A stretch of DNA of 64,000 bases from positions 372,001-436,000 of the forward strand of contig JBBELK010000822.1 of NCBI GenBank assembly GCA_037783545.1, written 5' to 3'. The notes below the pieces were generated by a model. The model saw only the letters and a list, made by a program, of their open reading frames with translations, was not told where the DNA came from and searched no databases. A program made the position numbers and the translations under genes. Below are positions 37,150-64,000 of this stretch, piece after piece. The stretch is from Henricia sp. BOLD:AAB3569. Lineage: Eukaryota > Echinodermata > Asteroidea > Spinulosida > Echinasteridae. Within the stretch, counting starts at the first letter, position 1. Every line of letters begins with the position of its first letter.

Positions 37150-37300
37150 AAATTGTTCTTATAGCTCAGCTGGTAGAACATCTGCCCGGTGAGTCGGAGG
37201 TCTCAAGTTCTAATCCCAATCAGGCCCTTTTGATTTTTCTCTCCTCCCAAGTTTGGTTGTTTCATTTACGGTAAATGGTAATTAGACACCATGACAGATA
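37150..37300 (+). mobile_element. SINE family A, copy
   Basis: ATAGCTCAGCTGGTAGAAC, CCGGTGAGTCGGAGGTCTC and TTCTAATCCCAATC (degraded B-box), then TTTGATTTTTCTCTCCTCCC and TTTGGTTGTTTC. Confidence 0.75.
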
Positions 37301-37384: not shown

Positions 37385-37530
37385 CTATACCACTGTGCTT
37401 TATAGCTCAGCTGGTAGAGCATCTGCCTGGTGAGTCAAAGGTCTCGGGTTCGAATCCCGATAAGATTTTTTTCTCATCCCAAGTTTGGTTGTTATTTAAA
37501 TGGTATTTAGGCGCCATGTGTTTGTTCAGT
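37385..37530 (+). mobile_element. SINE family A, best-preserved copy
   Basis: TATAGCTCAGCTGGTAGAGC and CTCGGGTTCGAATCCCGATAA form clear A- and B-box-like segments, followed by TTTTTTCTCATCCCAAG. It is tandem to the copy at 37150-37300. It lies about 450 bp upstream of the first neurexin exon. Confidence 0.8.
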
Positions 37531-37975: not shown

Positions 37976-38283
37976 AAGAGACCGTGATCACGGCAACCTT
38001 TGACGGAGAATCCTACATCAGCTACAGCCTACAAATGGAAGAGATCGACTCGGAGCAAGACAACATCATCTTTGACTTCAAGACGCAACGCCCAAACGGC
38101 CTTCTCATGTACGTGGGCCACGAATCAGACTACATCTGTGTCGCATTGATCAACAGCCTTTTGGAAGTGGCCGTAAATCTCGGGTCTGGGGAATATCGGG
38201 AAAAGATACAACCACGGCGGGAGATGGACGTCTTCACCGACAACAACTGGCACAATGTTTATATTACGAGACTTAGAGGAGAT
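37976..38283 (+). CDS. NRXN: Alpha-neurexin exon: first part of LNS2
   Basis: This exon codes for the N-terminal two thirds of a laminin-G (LNS) domain of a presynaptic neurexin, a type I membrane adhesion receptor that organises synapses by binding partners such as neuroligins. The acceptor is TTTCTTACCCACAG and the donor GAT|GTAAGT. The first codon is completed by one base from the previous exon (phase 1); the exit is phase 0. The 103-codon translation shows the family pattern: ATFDGESYISYSL at the start, FDFKTQRPNGLLMY, the SDY calcium-site region, VNLGSG, and NNWHNVYITR. The order of the following exons identifies it as LNS2 and not LNS4 or LNS6. It has one cysteine (38137) with no obvious partner. 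Confidence 0.93.
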
Positions 38284-41564: not shown

Positions 41565-41973
41565 TTAAGTACAAAATGGAAAAGGGGAGGGGGGAAGTAA
41601 CAAGAATAATGACTCCACACAAAAGCCTGGATTATTCGGCTGTTTATTTTAGCCAAACCCAGCACTTAAGCAAGCAACTAATGCCATCCGCTGACTCCAT
41701 GCGATGGAGTGGAGCTCTTGGCATATGATATGGATCAATCAAGAAACCGGACTATTTGCTGGGGGATGTTTTTGTACCGGCCGACAATTTGGAACCTAAA
41801 GAGACCTATGTAGAGACGAGTTAAAGCAGTTTTAAAATTTGGCATTATGGAGGAAAAAGCACTTACCAAGCACTTAATTTCGGAGCGCCGCGGCTAATAC
41901 ACCGGGCGGCTTATATTCCAAAAATTACGGTATTATGTTTAGTACCATGCATACATTTTATGTGTTCATTATA

Positions 41974-42491
41974 GGGGCGTTCGAGATGCTTACACTGGGT
42001 AACAGGGGGTTTACATCGGGGGAAGCCCCCAGAAGATGCAAAACGAACGACGCAGGGTCTCGCTTTGAATTCTGGGAACACGTGGTCAAAGGTTGTTGCC
42101 GCGGGTGGGGCTTTATAAACGCTGTAATCGTTTGACTGAAGCCGACGCCACGCAAAAATAGTTGCCCTAAAGTACGGCAATAAACTTTGTCAATGCCCAC
42201 AGACATCTACTGATACAGCAAATGTATTTACAGTCCTATTCCCTCCTATTTTGTGTCATAAATATGTGTTTTTCTTCGTACTCGCGTCACGAATCCAAAC
42301 GGTCCGCCATGTTTTACTACTCGCGGTTACTAGGTGACGTCATTCACCTTGCTTTACACCACAGACCCGCCCGCGAGCTCGGGTAGTGGTGGCTGCCACC
42401 GGGGCAGACTTGTGTAACACGTGATGGCTAAAAGAACGCTCCGGTGTACATGTAAGTTGGTGTTACCCGGTGTAAGCATCTCGAACGCCCC
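41974..42491 (+). mobile_element. Element B, copy 2, complete, TTATA duplication
   Basis: Inverted ends GGGGCGTTCGAGATGCTTAC and its inverse enclose 518 bp, flanked by direct repeats TTATA at 41969-41973 and 42492-42496. It contains GC-rich segments (CGCGAGCTCGGGTAGTGG). It is the intact reference for the interrupted copy at 38456-40588. Confidence 0.85.
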
Positions 42492-44024: not shown

Positions 44025-44186
44025 GTCAAAGTTCGTGTTGATGGGAGTCTCTTGGCCTCCGGATCCACTGACGGCAATTTTGGACGACTAACCGTCGGCA
44101 CCGAGTTTTTCGTCGGAGGGAGTCCTAAACCCAGTGCTCTCAGAGGCTCTAGCGTGGCTGAAAGTTTCGGAGGGAACATTCGCAAT
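44025..44186 (+). CDS. NRXN: Alpha-neurexin exon: second part of LNS2
   Basis: A 54-codon, phase 0-0 exon (CATGTGACAG acceptor, CGCAAT|GTAAGT donor) completing most of the LNS2 fold. The translation reads VKVRVDGSLLASGSTDG, then a strand with EFFVGGSPKPSALRGS, then SFGGNIRN. The VDG, FFVGG and SP elements are standard in neurexin LNS2. At the position where LNS domains normally have Gly-Cys, this exon has Gly-Asn (AAC at 44175-44177). Spliced to 52678 it continues LVYTGNRDLRL, exactly as expected for the domain, so the missing cysteine is not an exon-boundary artefact. The protein is extracellular, in the alpha-specific part of the ectodomain. Confidence 0.9.
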
Positions 44187-44217
44187 GTAAGTATCGATTT
44201 ATGATTAATACCGCTCC

Positions 44218-44814
44218 CAGTAGTACTGTGCCAATTCGAATATTTGAATATTGAATTTATAACAAAATATTCAAATAATTATTTTTCGTATTCGAATATT
44301 CGAAAAGGTTGATGAGTAATATGAGTTGAGATAAATGCGATTGGGCTTGTGTCGGGAGGAATGAATATTAATTAGGGCTTGTTTTGCCTTGCCCTACGTA
44401 ACTTGATTACCTATGTATACTCATTGCTTCCCCGAGACACTATAGAAAAACTTCATAGTGTGCTGGGGTGGGACTCTAATCCACGACCTCCTTCAGTAAG
44501 TCGTGGGTTCGAGTCCCACCCGACCTCGCTACGAGTAATGAGTTGATCAGTAAATTGGGAGAGAAATGAAATGTGTTTTTTTTTTACAAAAGTGGTATAA
44601 AGTTGCTATAACAGTGGTGCTCCAAATGTATGCAGTGGACTTTAATCATTGTTGCATTTCTAGATTGATCGTACTGCATTAAAATACTCTACGGTATACA
44701 TGTGCATACAGCTAATTTGGGAATTTATACCTAATAAATCGTGACTAAATTGGGTTAAAACAAATGTTTGAATATTCAAATTGTAAATCATTCGAATTGA
44801 CCCATGCAGCTCTA
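44218..44814. repeat. Repeat O (ATTCGAATATTC), with tRNA-like segment inside
   Basis: TGTGCCAATTCGAATATTTG at the left and ATTCGAATTGACCCATGCAGC at the right are inverted ends. At 44461-44530 a small inverted repeat (GGTGGGACTCTAATCCACGA / TCGTGGGTTCGAGTCCCACC) resembles a duplicated tRNA-like SINE arm. Fragments of O lie at 4720-4800 and 60424-60510. Confidence 0.5.
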
Positions 44815-45269
44815 GTTTCCAGATGCACTAAGTTTGTAGCAGTCATAGTAACCAGTTCTTTAAGTTTTGTTTTCTACAAATATTAATGTCCTGTGTTTCT
44901 AAACCTGATTTCTGTTCCAAAACGACACTTTTAGAAGCCGCCAGTAAGAATAACGACGATAGCGTCGCGTATCTCGGTTTTCAAGTTAAACCATTGCGCC
45001 ATCAAACGATCCGTCTTGACTAAGGGCAGCTTCATTGTGTTTCTTGCTGAAGTGCAATCCAGGGTCTTTAATGACGCCGCTACGGGAGGCAAATGATTCC
45101 TTGATAAGTCTTTAAGGCTTAGCACATTTCCTTCGCTCGACTCTTGAGGAGTTGAAGTGTGTATGTTCATGCTTAAGAAAACATACTGCTGGCGTTGCTC
45201 CTGCATGTGTTTATATTAGGTAATACAGCCCAGCTGTGTTCAGCAAAATATGTTGAACATTGATCCCAT

Positions 45270-45379
45270 CTGATGTGATAGAAATGTGGACAAATGTCCA
45301 GGCATTTTGGAAATCTGGATGCAGTGAAAAACAACTTTGCTCCAACGGGACAACTTGGCTCGAACCGCGGACCTTCTGC
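45270..45379 (-). mobile_element. SINE family C fragment
   Basis: ATGTGGACAAATGTCC, TGGATGCAGTGAAAAACAAC and CTCGAACCGCGGACC match the 54350-54545 copy. It stops at the TTAA of the T9 element; the other half is not on the far side. Confidence 0.6.
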
Positions 45380-45383
45380 TTAA

Positions 45384-45906
45384 AGGCCCAGTGGATCATT
45401 TGCAATGACCCCAAAAATTAATCGACGAGTTTACAGGGAAAAAGTTCTGAAAGTAAAGATTGAATTAATAGCAACTATCCATTGAAAGGTTTCCGCTCAA
45501 AATGATATAATTTTACCAGAAAATAATCCGTAAAGATGAAATTATTTAGATCGTTTGCAAACGATTTACTTATTTTTGGTTCGCATCTACGCGGTCCAAA
45601 ATGCATGGGCGCTGTGTACTCCGCGTGCGTGTTCCAACGCGATGCATTTTTATGGATCGCGCGCACACGCAGTATGTGCGCCACAGAGTGCATGACGCAA
45701 GCCACATAGTACCCGATCAACTGAGAACGAATATTTGAAACACCCCGCCAAGACCAGGAAAATGCATATGGATTTTCATGGTTTTTTTAAACGCGGTACA
45801 TTTGACAAAGCTGAAATTTCTTCGGATGAGTTTGTTGATGTCTTTCTTTTGATTTATAATAGTTTTATTCGCAGAATCGCTCAAAAACAGATCATCTACA
45901 GGGCCT
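45384..45906 (-). mobile_element. TTAA element T9, copy 2 (inverted)
   Basis: AGGCCCAGTGGATCATTTGC ... GATCATCTACAGGGCCT with TTAA at 45380-45383 and 45907-45910. Matches 36489-36979 in reverse, including ATCGTTTGCAAACGAT and GCGTGTTCCAACGCGATGC. Confidence 0.85.
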
Positions 45907-47394
45907 TTAACTCTTTCAGTGCCAGCGTTTTTTCAACATTTAAGTCTAAAGTGCCAGACTTTTCGCATTTTTGGTAATTCTTTGAAATTCTGTAAAGAAA
46001 GAAATAAATACGTTCTACTAACCAAACTTGTTGTATATTGTTCTTTTATAGATTCGAGAATCAATGGTATTGTTTTATTGAGTGATAAATACCAAAGTTT
46101 TTCACTATCCGAATCCGAAATATACTCAAAAAACTTCCTCTGCGGAGAAGCGAGTGCATTTTACTATGGGCGCCGCCATCTTGGCTGCTCAGAACTGCTC
46201 AGACTTTGCGACCTCTCGAGGAACTCCGACGTCGTACCTCGATGATATTGCATATTATGATAGATCAATGCGCCCTATAGCGATATTTTAGGTCGTACAT
46301 GTACGGCGGTTGGCGTTTTTGAAGAAAACAATTGTTAAAAACGAGATTGTACTATTTGTACAGTACATACAATAGATCGTACTTACAGTGGCGTACTGAG
46401 AAATGTTGCCTTCCATACCAGTGCCAATCGCCGCAGTCACTTTGTCTGGGGGGTTGGGGGGAGGGGGTGTGCCTGGTGACCTTCTTCCCCTCTTGTCCTG
46501 CACTTGGTTCTTGGTTATTACTATGAAGTACTGCGTACGGGCGCGGGGCCGACCGATGGGGCGTGTGGGGTAATCACAGTGCATTTGATGAACAGTACAT
46601 GAAATGAACAGTAATTCGTGCAATTTTGTATGCCAAATCCCCCCACCCCCCACCCCCCCGATCTATCCATGGTTAAGTACAAATGTGAATATCCCACTGC
46701 AATTTTGTGGAAGTATGCCGACCGCATACACGTGCGCTCATCAATTACTCTAAAAAACGATGCATGAAACATGTCTTCAGCTGCCCAGATGCTTCCGCCA
46801 TTGATTCCCACAATCTATAACGAATGCTCAACGTAAAAAAAATACGCACCGAAGGTTTGTCATTCCACGTTTACAAATTCCACACGTGGGGTTCCTGATG
46901 TCGTTCAGCATTGCAGATTCATTGGCTGTGTGATCTTATTTATGACAGTTCAATATTTCTGGGGAATTCTCCAAAGAGCGTGGGCAAACGGTATTCATGA
47001 CTATGCATAAGCAATATTTTCACAAGTGGTGCAAATGACGTTTTTTTTGTATTACAGTTTTTCACCGTGTGCTTTAAAGGTAGCCTACTTGTTTGGTAAT
47101 TGCCCTTCAAAAAAAATCTTAATTATCATCTAAAAGCTTACTTGTTATCAAGATGGTAATGGTAGTAATCATCCTGTGAAATTATTTCGTCTGAATTGCC
47201 CCCAAAATGACAAAACTATTCGAATGTAGGTGATCTTTGGAGCCATTCATTAATATACAAAACCGTGATTGGATTTTTTTGCAAGTTTTCTGAAGTATTA
47301 CTGCATCTATGTGGCGTTTTGCCGCTCTTGACGAAGAGTTTCAAAATGACTTATTATAAATTCGTCTCTTTGTTTCCAGTCGGTCGCGTACGTA

Positions 47395-47732
47395 TATTCA
47401 CTCTGTGGCTCGCTTCATACTGGTCGTGTGCGCGACCAGTCCGGTGCACATGCACAGCCTAACTGCCTACGGAAAGTGTGCAAAGCTGAATCGTGCAGCC
47501 TGTACACAGCGCCCATTTGGGACCGCCCAGATGCGAACCAACTAAGTAAATCGTTTGCAAACGATCTAAATAATTTCATCTTCATGGATTGTTTTCTGGT
47601 AAAATTATATCATCTCGGGCGGAAACATTTTATTAGATAGTTGCTACCAATTCAGTCTTTACTTTGAGGAAGGTTTTCCTAGTCAACCCGTTCATTAACT
47701 TTTTGGGTCATTGCAAATGATACAGTGGGCCT
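47395..47732 (+). mobile_element. T9 element, partial copy
   Basis: CTCTGTGGCTCGCTTCAT to ATGATACAGTGGGCCT then TTAA (47733-47736). The left terminus is replaced by other sequence. Confidence 0.7.
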
Positions 47733-48616
47733 TTAACTTGTGTCGGGGAAAATGAATGTTAATTAGGGTTTGTTTTGCCCTTAACCGACATAACTTGATT
47801 AGATTACGTGAAGCAATGTTAACGTAGGTTGCAGAAACATTGCGCAAAGTAGCAGAAGAGAAAGTCCAATGACATTGCGGCTCCTGTCACAAACACATCA
47901 CTGAAATGTATACAGTATACGGTCATGTTTAGTTTCAATCTCGTGCAAATCTACCTCATGCATTGATTCCTTCCCTTCATTATGCAGTATCATTGGGAAT
48001 CATGAACCTAATCCCTCCCATTTGCAATTTACATGTTCCTGACATCCAATTTTCATCAGTCTAGGGAAGAAACAGAAGCTGACTTTTTGAAGGGGTTGTT
48101 AACCCCTTGCGGATAGGTTTATCTTGCTGGAAGTTGGTCCAACACCCGATATTCTGTAGGCAAGTTCAAGTGCAAGGTAGCGGCTATAGCCATCATCCTG
48201 GCTCCGTCATCCATTTCTGAATGGTACATTTGCCCATGACTGGGTGATTTCAATGATGTGCCCCGAAATGTGCACAGTTAAATGTTTACAGTGGCATCAC
48301 GTGTCAGAACTTTCTCTTTTGGAGAAGTTGGCTCTGAGATTGGGTCATATTTATAAAAACTAGTATTTGCTTTAACTACCAATTTTTAAGCATTTACTCA
48401 TGTTTGTATGAAAAGCAAATGCTTTTAGTGGAAGGCATTTGCTAAATACTGAAAGTATTTACTTTTCACTTGCTAAGCCGATAGTATTTGCTTCATTTTG
48501 TGTGAATAAAAGGAAGTGCTAGCAATTTCAACTGTGCACTAGGCAACCACAAGTATTGAGCATTCAATTGCTGGGCACATTTGAAAATCAGTGTTTCACT
48601 AAAAGGCTTCCACAGG

Positions 48617-48670
48617 GTAAATAAGAAATAAATGAATAAATAAATAAATTAAATAAATAAATAAATAAGA
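48617..48670 (+). repeat. (AAAT)n microsatellite
   Basis: Imperfect AAATAAAT run of about 50 bp just upstream of the AGAGTG hairpin. Confidence 0.85.
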
Positions 48671-48723
48671 AGAGCCAGTTAAACGCCTAACTTAATGTTG
48701 TATTGACCATGGTGCATTCACCA

Positions 48724-49083
48724 CTCTCTAAATGCAAAAGAGTGAAGAACTCACTCTTTAAAAGAGTGACTCCCTCATAAAACCACTCTGTAACAGTGAA
48801 AATCACTCTAAAAGGAGTGAAATTCAGTAAAAAGAGTGGCAATTACTCCAAAAAGAGTGGGAAAAACCACTCCACAAAGGAGACATATAAAGGACAGCTC
48901 GAAAAAGAGCTGTCCTCCATATGGCTCCTCCTTTGAGTGGTTTTTTCCACTCTTTTTGGAGTGATTGCCACTCTTTTTACAGAATTTCACTCTTTTTAGA
49001 GTGATTTCCACTGTTTCCGAGTGGTTTTATAAGGGAGTCACTCTTTTGAAGAGTGAGTTTTTCAACCTTTTCCATTTAGAGAG
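48724..49083. repeat. 360-bp hairpin built of AGAGTG units
   Basis: The outer ends CTCTCTAAATG and CATTTAGAGAG begin two arms of about 175 bp. Each arm is a chain of AAAGAGTG/CACTCTTT words spaced 10-25 bp, matching the other arm in order; the centre is ACAGCTCGAAAAAGAGCTGT. No target duplication identified. Confidence 0.85.
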
Positions 49084-49524
49084 CACGCCAGCCTTTAAAC
49101 CCTACTTTAAATTGAAGTTTTGTAAAATATAATGTCCTCGATAGGATTCTGTCAGACTATTTATATATAGATAACTTGTCGCATTTACGCGCAAAAACCT
49201 TAACGTGAACCCACTACACTATACATTTCACATAACTGATTCGGGAGACACATTTGAAAAAGGCTTCTCCCATAAAGACGGTCTGTGCTAATTTTTTCAT
49301 TTTTAAGAAACACAAAACGGGGCTAAAGTCGGGGTTCAAAAATAGTCAACCAGGAAGATTTCAACCCACGCTTTTGTGTATGAAAACGGCCTCAGTTAAT
49401 GTTCACTTGCTAAATGCTGTAATACGCATGTGTACAACATATACATCCGATTAAACTTGTTTTCATTTTCGTAATATTTAGCAATTATGGTTATGTGACC
49501 TGTCTATTTTTTGTAGTAAATGAA

Positions 49525-49850
49525 TCGTGAATGATAATGATGATATAGATTTATACCGCACACTTATCCGGGGAAACCCTGATCATATGGCTCCATTAAA
49601 TCACTCCGTATACCATCTCGGCTCCCTGGGGAGTATACAGCCCCGGCTGCCTATTAGGCGCTCAATGGCTAATCAAACACATCAACATTCGCTACCCTAC
49701 CCATTTTTAGCTAGGTAGAGATCAGCAATGTGTGGAAGAGTACCTTGCCAAAGGGTACACGTACCACGGATGGACCGGACCAGGATTCGAACCCACTACC
49801 CGTAGAACTAACCAATGTTTTGAATACGGACCGCCCTGCGACAGCAACCC
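49525..49850 (-). mobile_element. tRNA-derived SINE, minus strand
   Basis: Minus strand: GGGTTCGAATCCTGGTCC near 49780-49800, then CCTTTGGCAAGGTACTC, ending in GCGGTATAAATCTATATC with ATCATTATC (a LINE-type tail). Organised like the SINE at 28960-29293 but a different family. Confidence 0.65.
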
Positions 49851-50489
49851 ACACCCACATGAACATTATTTGGCCTTTATAATCCATTAATTTGTTTTTG
49901 TCACAAACACTACCCTCCATGTAGGCCTACATATAGCCTACCTACTGGCTAGAAAAGAGCTGCAGATATGCATTCGTCAAATTGAATTCAGGTATCACTC
50001 CCATGTCACTCTGTTTTAATTCATGACGCATCTTATAGACTCGGCTCATTTATCACTTGCAAATCTCGTAAAAAGAAACCTTCCCTTTTATCAGACTTGG
50101 ACAACCCTTAACAGTAAGCACTGATCTTATTACAAGCCATGACATTGAGGTGTACACCTCCCCCATGACATGTTTCTTGGCTGCCTGGTTTTTAAGACCA
50201 TTAGGAAAAAACAGGATGTCCTAGGGGAGTGTTATCTCCTGTAACCGGAGGCTTTTTAAATTCCTAAATGGGTCCCACATCCCCTTCAATAAGATTTGCA
50301 GCCTATATGCAGCATCTCGAAGCAGATAAATTTATTGCAACTTGCATCCATGGACAAGATTGTGAATACCGCAACCAAATAAATAGAGGTATGTGATGAA
50401 ACCACAAATGGACGGGGAAACTTTAGTTGGGAGTGATTCGAAAATAAACAAGGAAGATTAGTGTACATTTACTTTCCACTTTGAAGAGA

Positions 50490-51317
50490 CAATTTGTCGC
50501 ATTTTTCGCATAGTGGCGAATAAGCGATTTTTCCGAAATTGAGATTTTGTCATATTTTGGGTTCTAAAGATGCCAATTTTCATTTGTGAAGGTTTAAAAT
50601 CAAAAATTTGAGTGGTTTTTGAGTTATTAAAAAATGCAGAATGGCGAATAGGCTCATGATTGGCCCAGCGTTTTTTGCGTAGTGACGAATACCGACATTA
50701 CGCTGGTGACCGATGGCGCCTTGCGCATTACAAGGCAAAGCCTCCTGCCGGGAACCAACAGACATTGCGTGAACCAAACACTCCTAACTTGGGGAAAAAT
50801 CAAACACACTGTGGAATTTGCAGCGTTTAAGAAGGAATTAATTGATAAATCAAATGCTAAAATAACCACGTGTCCATCTGTGTAAGTACCGGCCTTGTCT
50901 GAAATCCAGATGGGATAATATCAATGACGAAACTGAAGGCGACAGTTCAGATTTTCACAAACACATGCAAAAGAATAGGCGCGGCGAATACGTAGCACAG
51001 CCGGCTTGCATTTTTTGCATAGTGACGAATCGTGAAAAAGTCCATAGCGTTACGAGCGGTGAATAAGACGCACGTAGTGTTTTCTTTTCGCGTAGTTCGT
51101 GGCACCAATATCCCTCCGAGATTACCCTTACTCATGCCAAAAACCCAACATAATTTTAGTAAAACTCTTCGCTAATAACATTAGTCCAACAAAAATTGAA
51201 TTTTGTTACGAAAAGAAAACGAAATCCAAGAACCAGAATATGCATTACTAAAAAGCCTTATTACTCGAAAGTGGAATTTTGCTGATTCGCCACTATGCGA
51301 AAAATGCGACGAATTTA
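50490..51317. mobile_element. Inverted-repeat element with GCATAGTGACGAAT repeats
   Basis: Ends TTGTCGCATTTTTCGCATAG and inverse (...CTATGCGAAAAATGCGACGAA). Inside, TTTTTTGCGTAGTGACGAAT (50672) and TTTTTTGCATAGTGACGAAT (51010) repeat the terminal motif. Several minus-strand short frames have no recognisable domain. Confidence 0.7.
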
Positions 51318-52194
51318 GACTACTGTATGCTGTTTACTCAAATTGAAATGGTGTGGGTGGGTGTAATCTAGGCATGGCAAGGTCAATTTCAGATCTGGTT
51401 TGTGTTTAATAAAATGTACATCAAAAATGTCCGTTTTGAAGGCCTGGTCACACATAGGCCTACACGTGAAACGCCAAGCGTCGAGCGTCAACTATGGCAT
51501 GGAAAAGTTACATTTTTGGACATGTCAATTAAGTTAACTTTCTAGCCCAAAATAAATATATTTGATTTTTAAATATTTGTATTAGAAAACTTCTCTCATT
51601 TTGTGCACAATGTCCAGTTATATTAACTCTCTTGCAATTAATAGAATATTTCTGGAAAGCAACATTTAAAAATAAGTTGAACATGTAGTGGCAATTATCA
51701 AAGGGTAGGCACTACTGTAACGTTTTGAGAGAAAACCTGCAAGACGTTTTGGTTTCAAAGACAAACCAAAACACGTTTTCCAACGTAGATGCTGAATATT
51801 ATTTTGTGAACAAAAGTTCACCAACAAAAATGATTTTGTTTTTTAAATTGCAGATGTCTGTAATTCAGCAAAGAAATATTGGCATTTTATTTCAGGAGGA
51901 TCTAAATTAATGCTCTAGGATTGATGCTATGGTTGAAGGTGTAAACTTGGAACTTGGCAAATGTCTTGGTTCACTCTTTATGACAAACACTTCTTTTGGA
52001 AATATTTGCATTTTTTGCAACTCCATTTCAGCGAAAAAGTCACCACCAGACCAAAAGTCTAATGACCCAAATGATTAAATATATCATTTGCATTTACCCA
52101 AAATTTTGCTTCATGAGTCGACAAGAAAAACTAGACTAAAAGTGTTGATAGCAAGGGGAACAAGCTCCACATGATTTTTTCCCCTGTAAAATGG

Positions 52195-52500
52195 TACCTT
52201 TGTGGGAGAAATTGCCAACTGAAGGTGGTTTTTGTTTTTTTTAAAAACAGTTTTGCCATTCATTCACACATAAAAAACATGCATGGAATCTTCAGGTTTT
52301 CTGCAGTATTGCAGCATCTATAGGTGAAATTTCTACAAGGCAGTTTTATCAACATATGCTTTTAGTCATGAAAAGAACGCTGTTTTGAACAGTTTACCAA
52401 TCATGTACCGGTACTATATTTAATGTGCAGATGCCTCACCAATTAAGCTATTAAGCCCATTGCAGTTAGTCACTGATTGGGATTGGCTATCACGTCAGCA
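52195..52500 (-). mobile_element. T2-related element end plus SINE C fragment
   Basis: 52195-52420 matches 5595-5812 in reverse and terminates ...AACAGTTTACCAATCATGTACC...TTAA (52421-52424). 52430-52500 carries CACTGATTGGGATTGGCTATC of SINE C. Confidence 0.6.
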
Positions 52501-52677
52501 TCTAGATTTTCCAAACTCATGAACATTTGTCCGCATTTCTACCGAAGCCGAATAAAAATTTTCAAATTCATATTTGGCCATTTTTGCAACATGCCAATCA
52601 GGGTTCTAATTTTGACGGAAACTTTGCTTTAATAGCATTATGGATGCCAATATCAAATCCTGTACTGTTTGTTGTAG

Positions 52678-52851
52678 TTGGTTTACACCGGCAACCGCGA
52701 CCTTCGTCTCCTGGAGAAGGCCTTCAAGAGGGACCCTTGGATCTACTTCCAGGGTGAGGTGTTGTTTAAGGAGGAGACGGTGCAAGGCATTGATCCCATT
52801 ACCTTCCTGACCGAGGAGGCTCTGCTCAGATTGCCCAGGTGGAATGCCGAG
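52678..52851 (+). CDS. NRXN: Alpha-neurexin exon: end of LNS2, start of LNS3
   Basis: A 58-codon, phase 0-0 exon (TTTGTTGTAG acceptor, GCCGAG|GTATGT donor) with clearly raised GC. It reads LVYTGNRDLRLLEKAFKRDP, closes LNS2 with GEVLFKEE, and enters LNS3 with DPITFLTEEALLRLPRW, which is the neurexin DPI(T/S)F...LP(K/R)W junction. LNS domains normally have Cys after the Phe-Lys of the FK position; here it is Glu (GAG at 52771-52773). Together with the Asn at 44175 this removes both halves of the LNS2 disulfide, with normal spacing (34 residues between the two positions). Confidence 0.92.
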
Positions 52852-53844: not shown

Positions 53845-53965
53845 TGTTGAGGTGTTTAGCTCAGCTTGTGGAGCATCTGCCCAGTGAGTCAGAGGTCTCG
53901 GGTTAGAGTCCTGATGCATGTAAGACCCTTACAATTTTTCTCTCATCTCAAGCTTGGTTCTTAGA
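53845..53965 (+). mobile_element. SINE family A next to exon acceptor
   Basis: TTTAGCTCAGCTTGTGGAGC, AGGTCTCGGGTTAGAGTCC and ACAATTTTTCTCTCATCTC; the body ends within about 40 bases of the acceptor at 54000. Confidence 0.75.
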
Positions 53966-54000: not shown

Positions 54001-54240
54001 TCCAAAGGCTCCCTATCTTATGACTTCCGCACCAACGAGCCCAACGTAGTCATCATGTACAGCAGCGGCTCGGAAGAAATGTCCGATTTCCTAGCCTTTG
54101 AGCTCTTAGATGGCTACCTGAATCTCATCCTGGATCTGGGATCAGGACCAGTACGGGAAAAGCCTTACACCTTCACACTGAATGATGGCGAATGGCATCA
54201 TGTAGTCTTTGAAAGGGAGCTCACGCTTGGAACAATCAAA
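54001..54240 (+). CDS. NRXN: Alpha-neurexin exon: core of LNS3
   Basis: An 80-codon, phase 0-0 exon (TTCTTTCTGCAG acceptor, ATCAAA|GTAAGT donor). It follows RW-NAE directly and reads SKGSLSYDFRTNEPN, then DFLAFELLDGYLNLILDLG, SG, and LNDGEWHHVVFERE, ending LGTIK. These are the laminin-G strands of neurexin LNS3, including the FRTNEPNG-type turn (with a Val in place of the usual Gly-Leu start), LLDG and the DLGSG segment. The loop between VIMYSSG and DFLAFELLDG is short and has no intron. In vertebrate neurexins this loop hosts alternative splice site 3, so this gene appears fixed in the insert-free form there. Confidence 0.93.
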
Positions 54241-54349
54241 GTAAGTGTCCATATGGAAGGTATTTTTCTTTTTTTTCTTCTAAATAGGTCATTTCCTTTT
54301 TTATGGATAATGACCCAGGTGCCACCGGGTTAAATTATTTCAATAGAAA

Positions 54350-63669: not shown

Positions 63670-64000
63670 GTGGATTCGTTATCCTGGACGTTTAAGGTTC
63701 CCGGATCCAGCCAGAGCTTGAACCTAGAAATGGACCTCATCGTGGGCGGTATTGACCCGGCCCAACCGCTACCCTTGGAGCAATTCTCCGGGGCCTTTCG
63801 GCACGGCTACGTTGGCTGCGTGCGCAACCTGGCCATGAATGGCGAGACATTGGACCTGCCGCAATACGTTGAGCAACAATCGGAAGATGGGAACATCGTA
63901 CGGTTCTGTCGCGAGGAGGAACCACTGTGCGTCAGTAGTCCCTGTAGGAACGGCGGAGAATGCCGCGAAGGCTGGAACCGGTATATCTGTGATTGTCGAC
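63670..64000 (+). CDS. NRXN: Alpha-neurexin exon: end of LNS3 and EGF2 start (runs off window)
   Basis: Joined to the 54240 donor in phase 0, it reads GTIK-VDSLSWTFKVPG, then LNLEMDLIVGG, GYVGCVRNLAMNG and VRFCREEE, completing LNS3 with both disulfide cysteines present (63817 and 63907). Then follows an EGF-like domain: CVSSPCRNGG, ECREGWNRYICDC, with cysteines at 63928, 63943, 63961, 63988 and 63994. The sixth lies beyond the window. REGWNRYICDC is characteristic of neurexin EGF domains between LNS3 and LNS4. The acceptor CACCAAG at 63669 is chosen over one at 63696 because it restores the full strand length expected after LGTIK. Confidence 0.92.
   Translation, partial: MDSLSWTFKVPGSSQSLNLEMDLIVGGIDPAQPLPLEQFSGAFRHGYVGCVRNLAMNGETLDLPQYVEQQSEDGNIVRFCREEEPLCVSSPCRNGGECREGWNRYICDCR

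Follow-up and report, generated by a model that had tools for sequence, protein, structure and literature searches.

Cysteine pairs in described neurexins

The closest described counterpart of the domain considered here is LNS2 of vertebrate neurexin-1-alpha, in which a disulfide joins Cys444 and Cys480. A cysteine at the first of these two places, which ends an FxGC motif, is present in three of the six LNS domains of neurexin-1-alpha in the Protein Data Bank (PDB), namely LNS2, LNS3, and LNS5. The other three domains have Trp (LNS1, FKGWI), His (LNS4, FIGHL), and Gln (LNS6, FQGQL) at this place. Disulfide cysteine pairs tend to come and go together. The Ca2+ site of vertebrate LNS2 consists of the Asp329 side chain and of residues 346 and 414, which reportedly act via their carbonyls (2H0B).

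Trp1065 of EGF3 fits into a cave that the Cys1015–Cys1043 disulfide of LNS5 and the linker form, according to PMC3084293, which notes that EGF2 has this Trp as well. For vertebrate LNS2, PMC4183798 names Cys-293 as the only free cysteine. Among the titles and abstract openings returned by literature searches on neurexin LNS2 cysteines in echinoderms and other invertebrates, we found nothing on echinoderm LNS2 cysteines.

An alpha-neurexin gene in a starfish

The window that we analyzed, 64,000 nucleotides of starfish (Henricia sp.) DNA, comes from contig C822 of an assembly that totals 740.7 Mb. Within it, three exons with GT/AG borders encode LNS2 of an alpha-neurexin, and these are followed by parts of LNS3. 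Positions are those of the window, and residues follow mouse Nrxn1 numbering, anchored on Cys293.

37976..38283, + strand: LNS2 exon A; 3' end ...YITRLRGD, then gtaagt
38137..38139, + strand: lone Cys codon (TGT), at the place of mouse Asn332
44025..44186, + strand: LNS2 exon B; VKVRVDG...ESFGGNIRN
44175..44177, + strand: AAC, Asn at the Cys444 place (direct reading and alignment; same in haplotype C682)
52678..52851, + strand: LNS2 exon C; LVYTGNRD...LPRWNAE
52771..52773, + strand: GAG, Glu at the Cys480 place (direct reading and alignment; same in haplotype C682)
54007..54246, + strand: first exon of LNS3, matched part only, without Cys (profile match and tblastn)
63670..63999, + strand: C-terminal part of LNS3 and start of EGF2, with a Cys pair at 63817 and 63907; the exon extends past the window

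Exon A supplies the lone Cys together with the Ca2+-site residues Asp and Leu, and it meets exon B at the position that corresponds to splice site 2 in vertebrates. Pieces of LNS1–LNS6 and EGF1–EGF3 were found by tblastn in order on C822, with EGFs following LNS1, LNS3, and LNS5. The pieces fetched from contig C682, a second haplotype, carry the same set in the same order, minus the last LNS6 exon. Judged from its sequence, the gene is a maintained alpha-neurexin. The last LNS6 exon (C822, L011:5611-5814) lacks a match in L017 (C682:252601-260000), where one was expected, and this may be a gap, divergence, or a haplotype difference. Within intron 1 of LNS2, a stretch at about 41862-42179 has no match in the C682 piece spanning the same intron (L013), which marks an insertion or deletion between the haplotypes. 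A tRNA-like repeat (TAGCTCAGCTGGTAGA...), perhaps a tRNA-derived SINE, occurs three times around the LNS2 exons, at 37159-37223 and 37400-37464 before them and at 53854-53918 after them.

The cysteine pair is missing from LNS2

The spliced translation matched PDB neurexin-1-alpha (3qcw) with an E value of 6.7e-65 over the whole chain and 3.5e-41 for the LNS2 stretch alone, and 85 of 205 aligned residues were identical to vertebrate neurexin-1-alpha LNS2. The best seven PDB matches were all neurexin-1 chains, aligned at LNS2. The starfish domain resembles vertebrate neurexin-1-alpha LNS2 (3qcw, 3r05, 2h0b, 6pnp) in its Ca2+-site residues Asp329 and Leu346, in the place of the splice site 2 junction, and in its location between EGF1 and LNS3. 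It differs in having Asn for Cys444, Glu for Cys480, Ser for Cys293, Cys for Asn332, Thr for Gly416, and Ser for Ile401.

Direct reading bore out the codons reported in the initial annotation, which was made from the window sequence alone. Exon B ends in ...GAA AGT TTC GGA GGG AAC ATT CGC AAT, then gtaagt, which places Asn (AAC, 44175-44177) after FGG, and exon C contains ...GAG GTG TTG TTT AAG GAG GAG..., which places Glu (GAG, 52771-52773) after LFK. In the alignment to 3qcw, the Asn falls on the Cys of FMGC and the Glu on the Cys of AFKCENV. The annotation had also described normal spacing within well-aligned contexts, and indeed fixed anchors flank both sites and the alignment is ungapped from FK to DPITF. 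Cysteines at shifted positions, which it had named as evidence that would speak against its reading, were sought in the LNS2 alignment, and the 10 residues to either side of each mapped site contain none. The Cys444–Cys480 disulfide of vertebrate LNS2 is absent here, with Asn and Glu on both haplotypes. This bond was not used as a criterion for LNS2 membership, as sister LNS domains are without it.

The TGT codon at 38137 in the first LNS2 exon, already singled out as a lone cysteine, encodes the only Cys across the 214 residues of the three exons. A lone Cys in LNS2 is unremarkable because vertebrate LNS2 likewise has one free Cys, according to PMC4183798. We also considered a new glycosylation site created by the Asn and rejected it, as there is no N-X-S/T sequon at this place or anywhere in the three exons.

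LNS2 is under strong purifying selection. Over the LNS2 exons (214 codons), C682 and the window differ at 18 bases, of which 15 are synonymous and 3 nonsynonymous (pS 0.104, pN 0.006, pN/pS 0.058).

Cysteines across neurexin and other LG domains

At the first Cys place, LNS1 through LNS6 of the starfish gene have His, Asn, Cys, His, Cys, and Ile, so that two of the six domains carry Cys (LNS6 was read from C822 only). The motifs without this Cys are MRGHI in LNS1, FQGHM in LNS4, and FKGII in LNS6, and those with it are GYVGC in LNS3 and GYQGC in LNS5. The retention of both cysteines in LNS3 (63817 and 63907, hand-counted from the tblastn row) agrees with what had been reported. LNS3 and LNS5 belong to the same LG fold family as LNS2, but they have kept the Cys pair and are followed by an EGF. 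Vertebrate LNS1, LNS4, and LNS6 resemble starfish LNS2 in having no Cys at the FxGC place, but they are different domains. The FxGC place of starfish LNS4 (L010:9756-9983, L016:6605-6832) is His, as in vertebrates; vertebrate LNS4 has two further cysteines eight residues apart (DLCKNGDIDYC), whereas the starfish domain (DLAREESPEFI) is without them.

A search of the genome with the PF02210 profile gave 62 matches. The tally outside neurexin covered 17 matches that reached profile position 116 or beyond, at 14 loci (L045 and L046 were left out), and likely haplotype pairs were merged; L032, L033, and L040 were unreadable at the FxGX place, probably because an exon ends there. Of the readable non-neurexin LG domains, 10 of 11 had Cys and one had Asp. 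The domain with Asp (SFVGDIQKV) is found at G000:C216:641999-642307 and C204:1625976-1626281 (L042, L043). A search for relatives in viral contigs gave 21 pattern matches, with no relative among them.

On this sequence comparison, Cys is usual at the FxGC place in the wider LG family, and neurexin LNS domains often depart from it. The premise of the initial annotation that Cys is standard in LNS domains is too broad, as it holds for only three of the six domains of solved neurexin-1-alpha. Its interpretation survives in part: both cysteines are absent from a constrained LNS2, but a break with a family rule is not supported. Starfish LNS2 joins LNS1, LNS4, and LNS6 in a variation that is real but modest, and ordinary in kind.

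Why the disulfide may be dispensable in LNS2

Starfish alpha-neurexin LNS2 probably folds without a C-terminal disulfide at the Cys444–Cys480 place. The LG beta-sandwich would be stable without this bond, judging from LNS1, LNS4, and LNS6. The bond would be needed most where it shapes the socket into which the next EGF docks, in LNS3 before EGF2 and in LNS5 before EGF3. LNS2 directly precedes LNS3, with no EGF after it, and the need for the bond could be relaxed for this reason, which we consider the simplest reading. One Cys may have been lost first, leaving its unpaired partner free to change, so that the two positions would have been released as a pair. The absence of both cysteines, rather than one, fits the tendency of such pairs to come and go together.

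In the starfish gene, the Cys pair persists in LNS3 and LNS5, the domains that precede EGF2 and EGF3. EGF2 retains the Trp, and EGF3 has Phe at the Trp place. The argument from the EGF socket draws on a single vertebrate structure and within it on LNS5, and the Phe in starfish EGF3 counts against it. Nor is an EGF rule general, as LNS1 precedes EGF1 yet is without Cys in both the vertebrate and the starfish protein. Vertebrate LNS2 has the bond though no EGF comes next, so the bond has some use there, and the explanation is incomplete. Relaxed need nevertheless suggests a simple and testable idea, that the C-terminal LG disulfide of neurexins is kept where it serves to dock EGF2 or EGF3 and may be dispensable elsewhere. 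It would add little to our understanding of the synapse ahead of studies on ligand binding and on neurexins from other echinoderms.

Ca2+ site and ligand-related residues

In the Ca2+ site of starfish LNS2, Asp329 and Leu346 are kept and Met414 is replaced by Arg. Among residues related to dystroglycan binding, Asp329 and Gly347 are kept in the alignment, Tyr412 is Phe, and Gly416 is Thr. In PMC4183798, a Y412F mutant was read as showing that the hydroxyl is unnecessary for dystroglycan binding, and a G416A mutant had diminished binding. Dystroglycan binding by starfish LNS2 therefore seems doubtful even with the disulfide set aside.

Ile401, which is needed for neurexophilin 1 (Nxph1), is Ser in starfish LNS2, so this neurexophilin-receptor residue has no match, and neurexophilins are absent from invertebrates according to PMC6856630. 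The PF06312 profile had 18 matches in the genome, the best of which is followed downstream on the same strand by a PC-esterase-like open frame, as judged by eye. We found no support for a true neurexophilin as a ligand of LNS2 in the one match examined, the best of the 18, which is NXPE-like, and the PF06312 matches may be NXPE proteins. Several of the matches cluster at G000:C219:3141864-3297388 (L018, L020, L023-L025, of which L018 was the one examined), perhaps as a tandem NXPE-like family.

Alternative explanations

That both codons arose from errors in sequencing or assembly has a negligible probability. We found no supporting evidence for it; AAC is at least two base changes from a Cys codon and GAG is three, in line with the initial annotation, which had counted at least two for each in calling simple errors unlikely. 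The second haplotype (C682; L013, L014) carries the identical Asn and Glu, and agreement at both codons between haplotypes that differ elsewhere makes base-calling error very unlikely. Neurexins are alternatively spliced and the junction of exons A and B is at splice site 2, so a mutually exclusive version of exon B or C might carry the cysteines, or the true exons might have been missed. We consider this highly unlikely as well. Starfish and vertebrate peptides of exons B and C, used as tblastn queries against 36000-63999 with E up to 10, recovered the known exons at 1e-8 or better and beyond them only matches at 0.79 or worse. A scan of 36000-63000 for a GG...FxGC motif gave a single unrelated match on the minus strand. 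Weak matches at 42012, 46879, and 39477, each with a GGSP or FxxC-like piece, were rejected as exons, as they are short frames with no exon resemblance and have no donor of GTRAG form within 150 bases. The stretch from 36000 to 63999 thus appears to hold no credible Cys-bearing alternative exon. Exons B and C are themselves maintained, as the low pN/pS shows.

Two further readings accept the absence of the pair and differ in what it would mean. The disulfide could be a gain of vertebrates or chordates, in which case the absence would be older and the starfish lineage would never have had the pair. Starfish LNS2 is the sole invertebrate sequence in our comparison. According to PMC6856630, whose Fig. 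EV2 shows an LNS2 alignment that includes sea slug, ant, and fly, the LNS2 site for Nxph1 is conserved within vertebrates but not beyond them, which indicates that LNS2 changed in vertebrates. However, the first Cys is usual in LG domains, both in the 10 of 11 readable ones outside neurexin in this genome and in the sister domains LNS3 and LNS5, and regaining both cysteines at their canonical places would seem less likely than a single loss. A gain is thus unlikely, and what we call a loss is polarized only by vertebrate LNS2 and those 10 of 11 domains, with its direction and age inferred. Alternatively, LNS2 may have been repurposed, with the lone Cys332 forming an inter-chain or inter-domain bond or with the rim binding a different ligand. 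The change of Asn332 to Cys, three residues after the Ca2+-binding Asp, would fit such a role, as would Thr at Gly416, where G416A had diminished dystroglycan binding (PMC4183798), Arg at Met414, and Ser at Ile401, an Nxph1 contact. Against this, vertebrate LNS2 also has one free Cys (PMC4183798), an Nxph1 site is not expected beyond vertebrates (PMC6856630), and there is no sign that Cys332 is exposed. Repurposing therefore seems quite improbable. It is similarly improbable that in starfish, and perhaps in all echinoderms, LNS2 has turned into an adhesion module that lacks the disulfide, has an altered rim with Thr at Gly416 and Arg at Met414 and a new Cys by the Ca2+ site, and binds a set of ligands unlike that of its vertebrate counterpart, with dystroglycan binding lost or altered.

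Mitochondrial sequences in the assembly

The assembly includes a mitochondrial contig of 16,221 bases. Its COX1 is best read with the echinoderm code (TGA as Trp, AAA as Asn, ATA as Ile, and AGR as Ser), a judgment based on conserved COX1 motifs. The tRNAs are clustered and the large ribosomal RNA is on the opposite strand to the small one; the order seen is the starfish order, tRNA by tRNA. The sequence is very likely that of a starfish. At G000:C955:7592-41374, three copies of COX1 lie in tandem, 16,221 bases apart, and this is probably a concatenated mitochondrial genome that arose as an assembly artifact.
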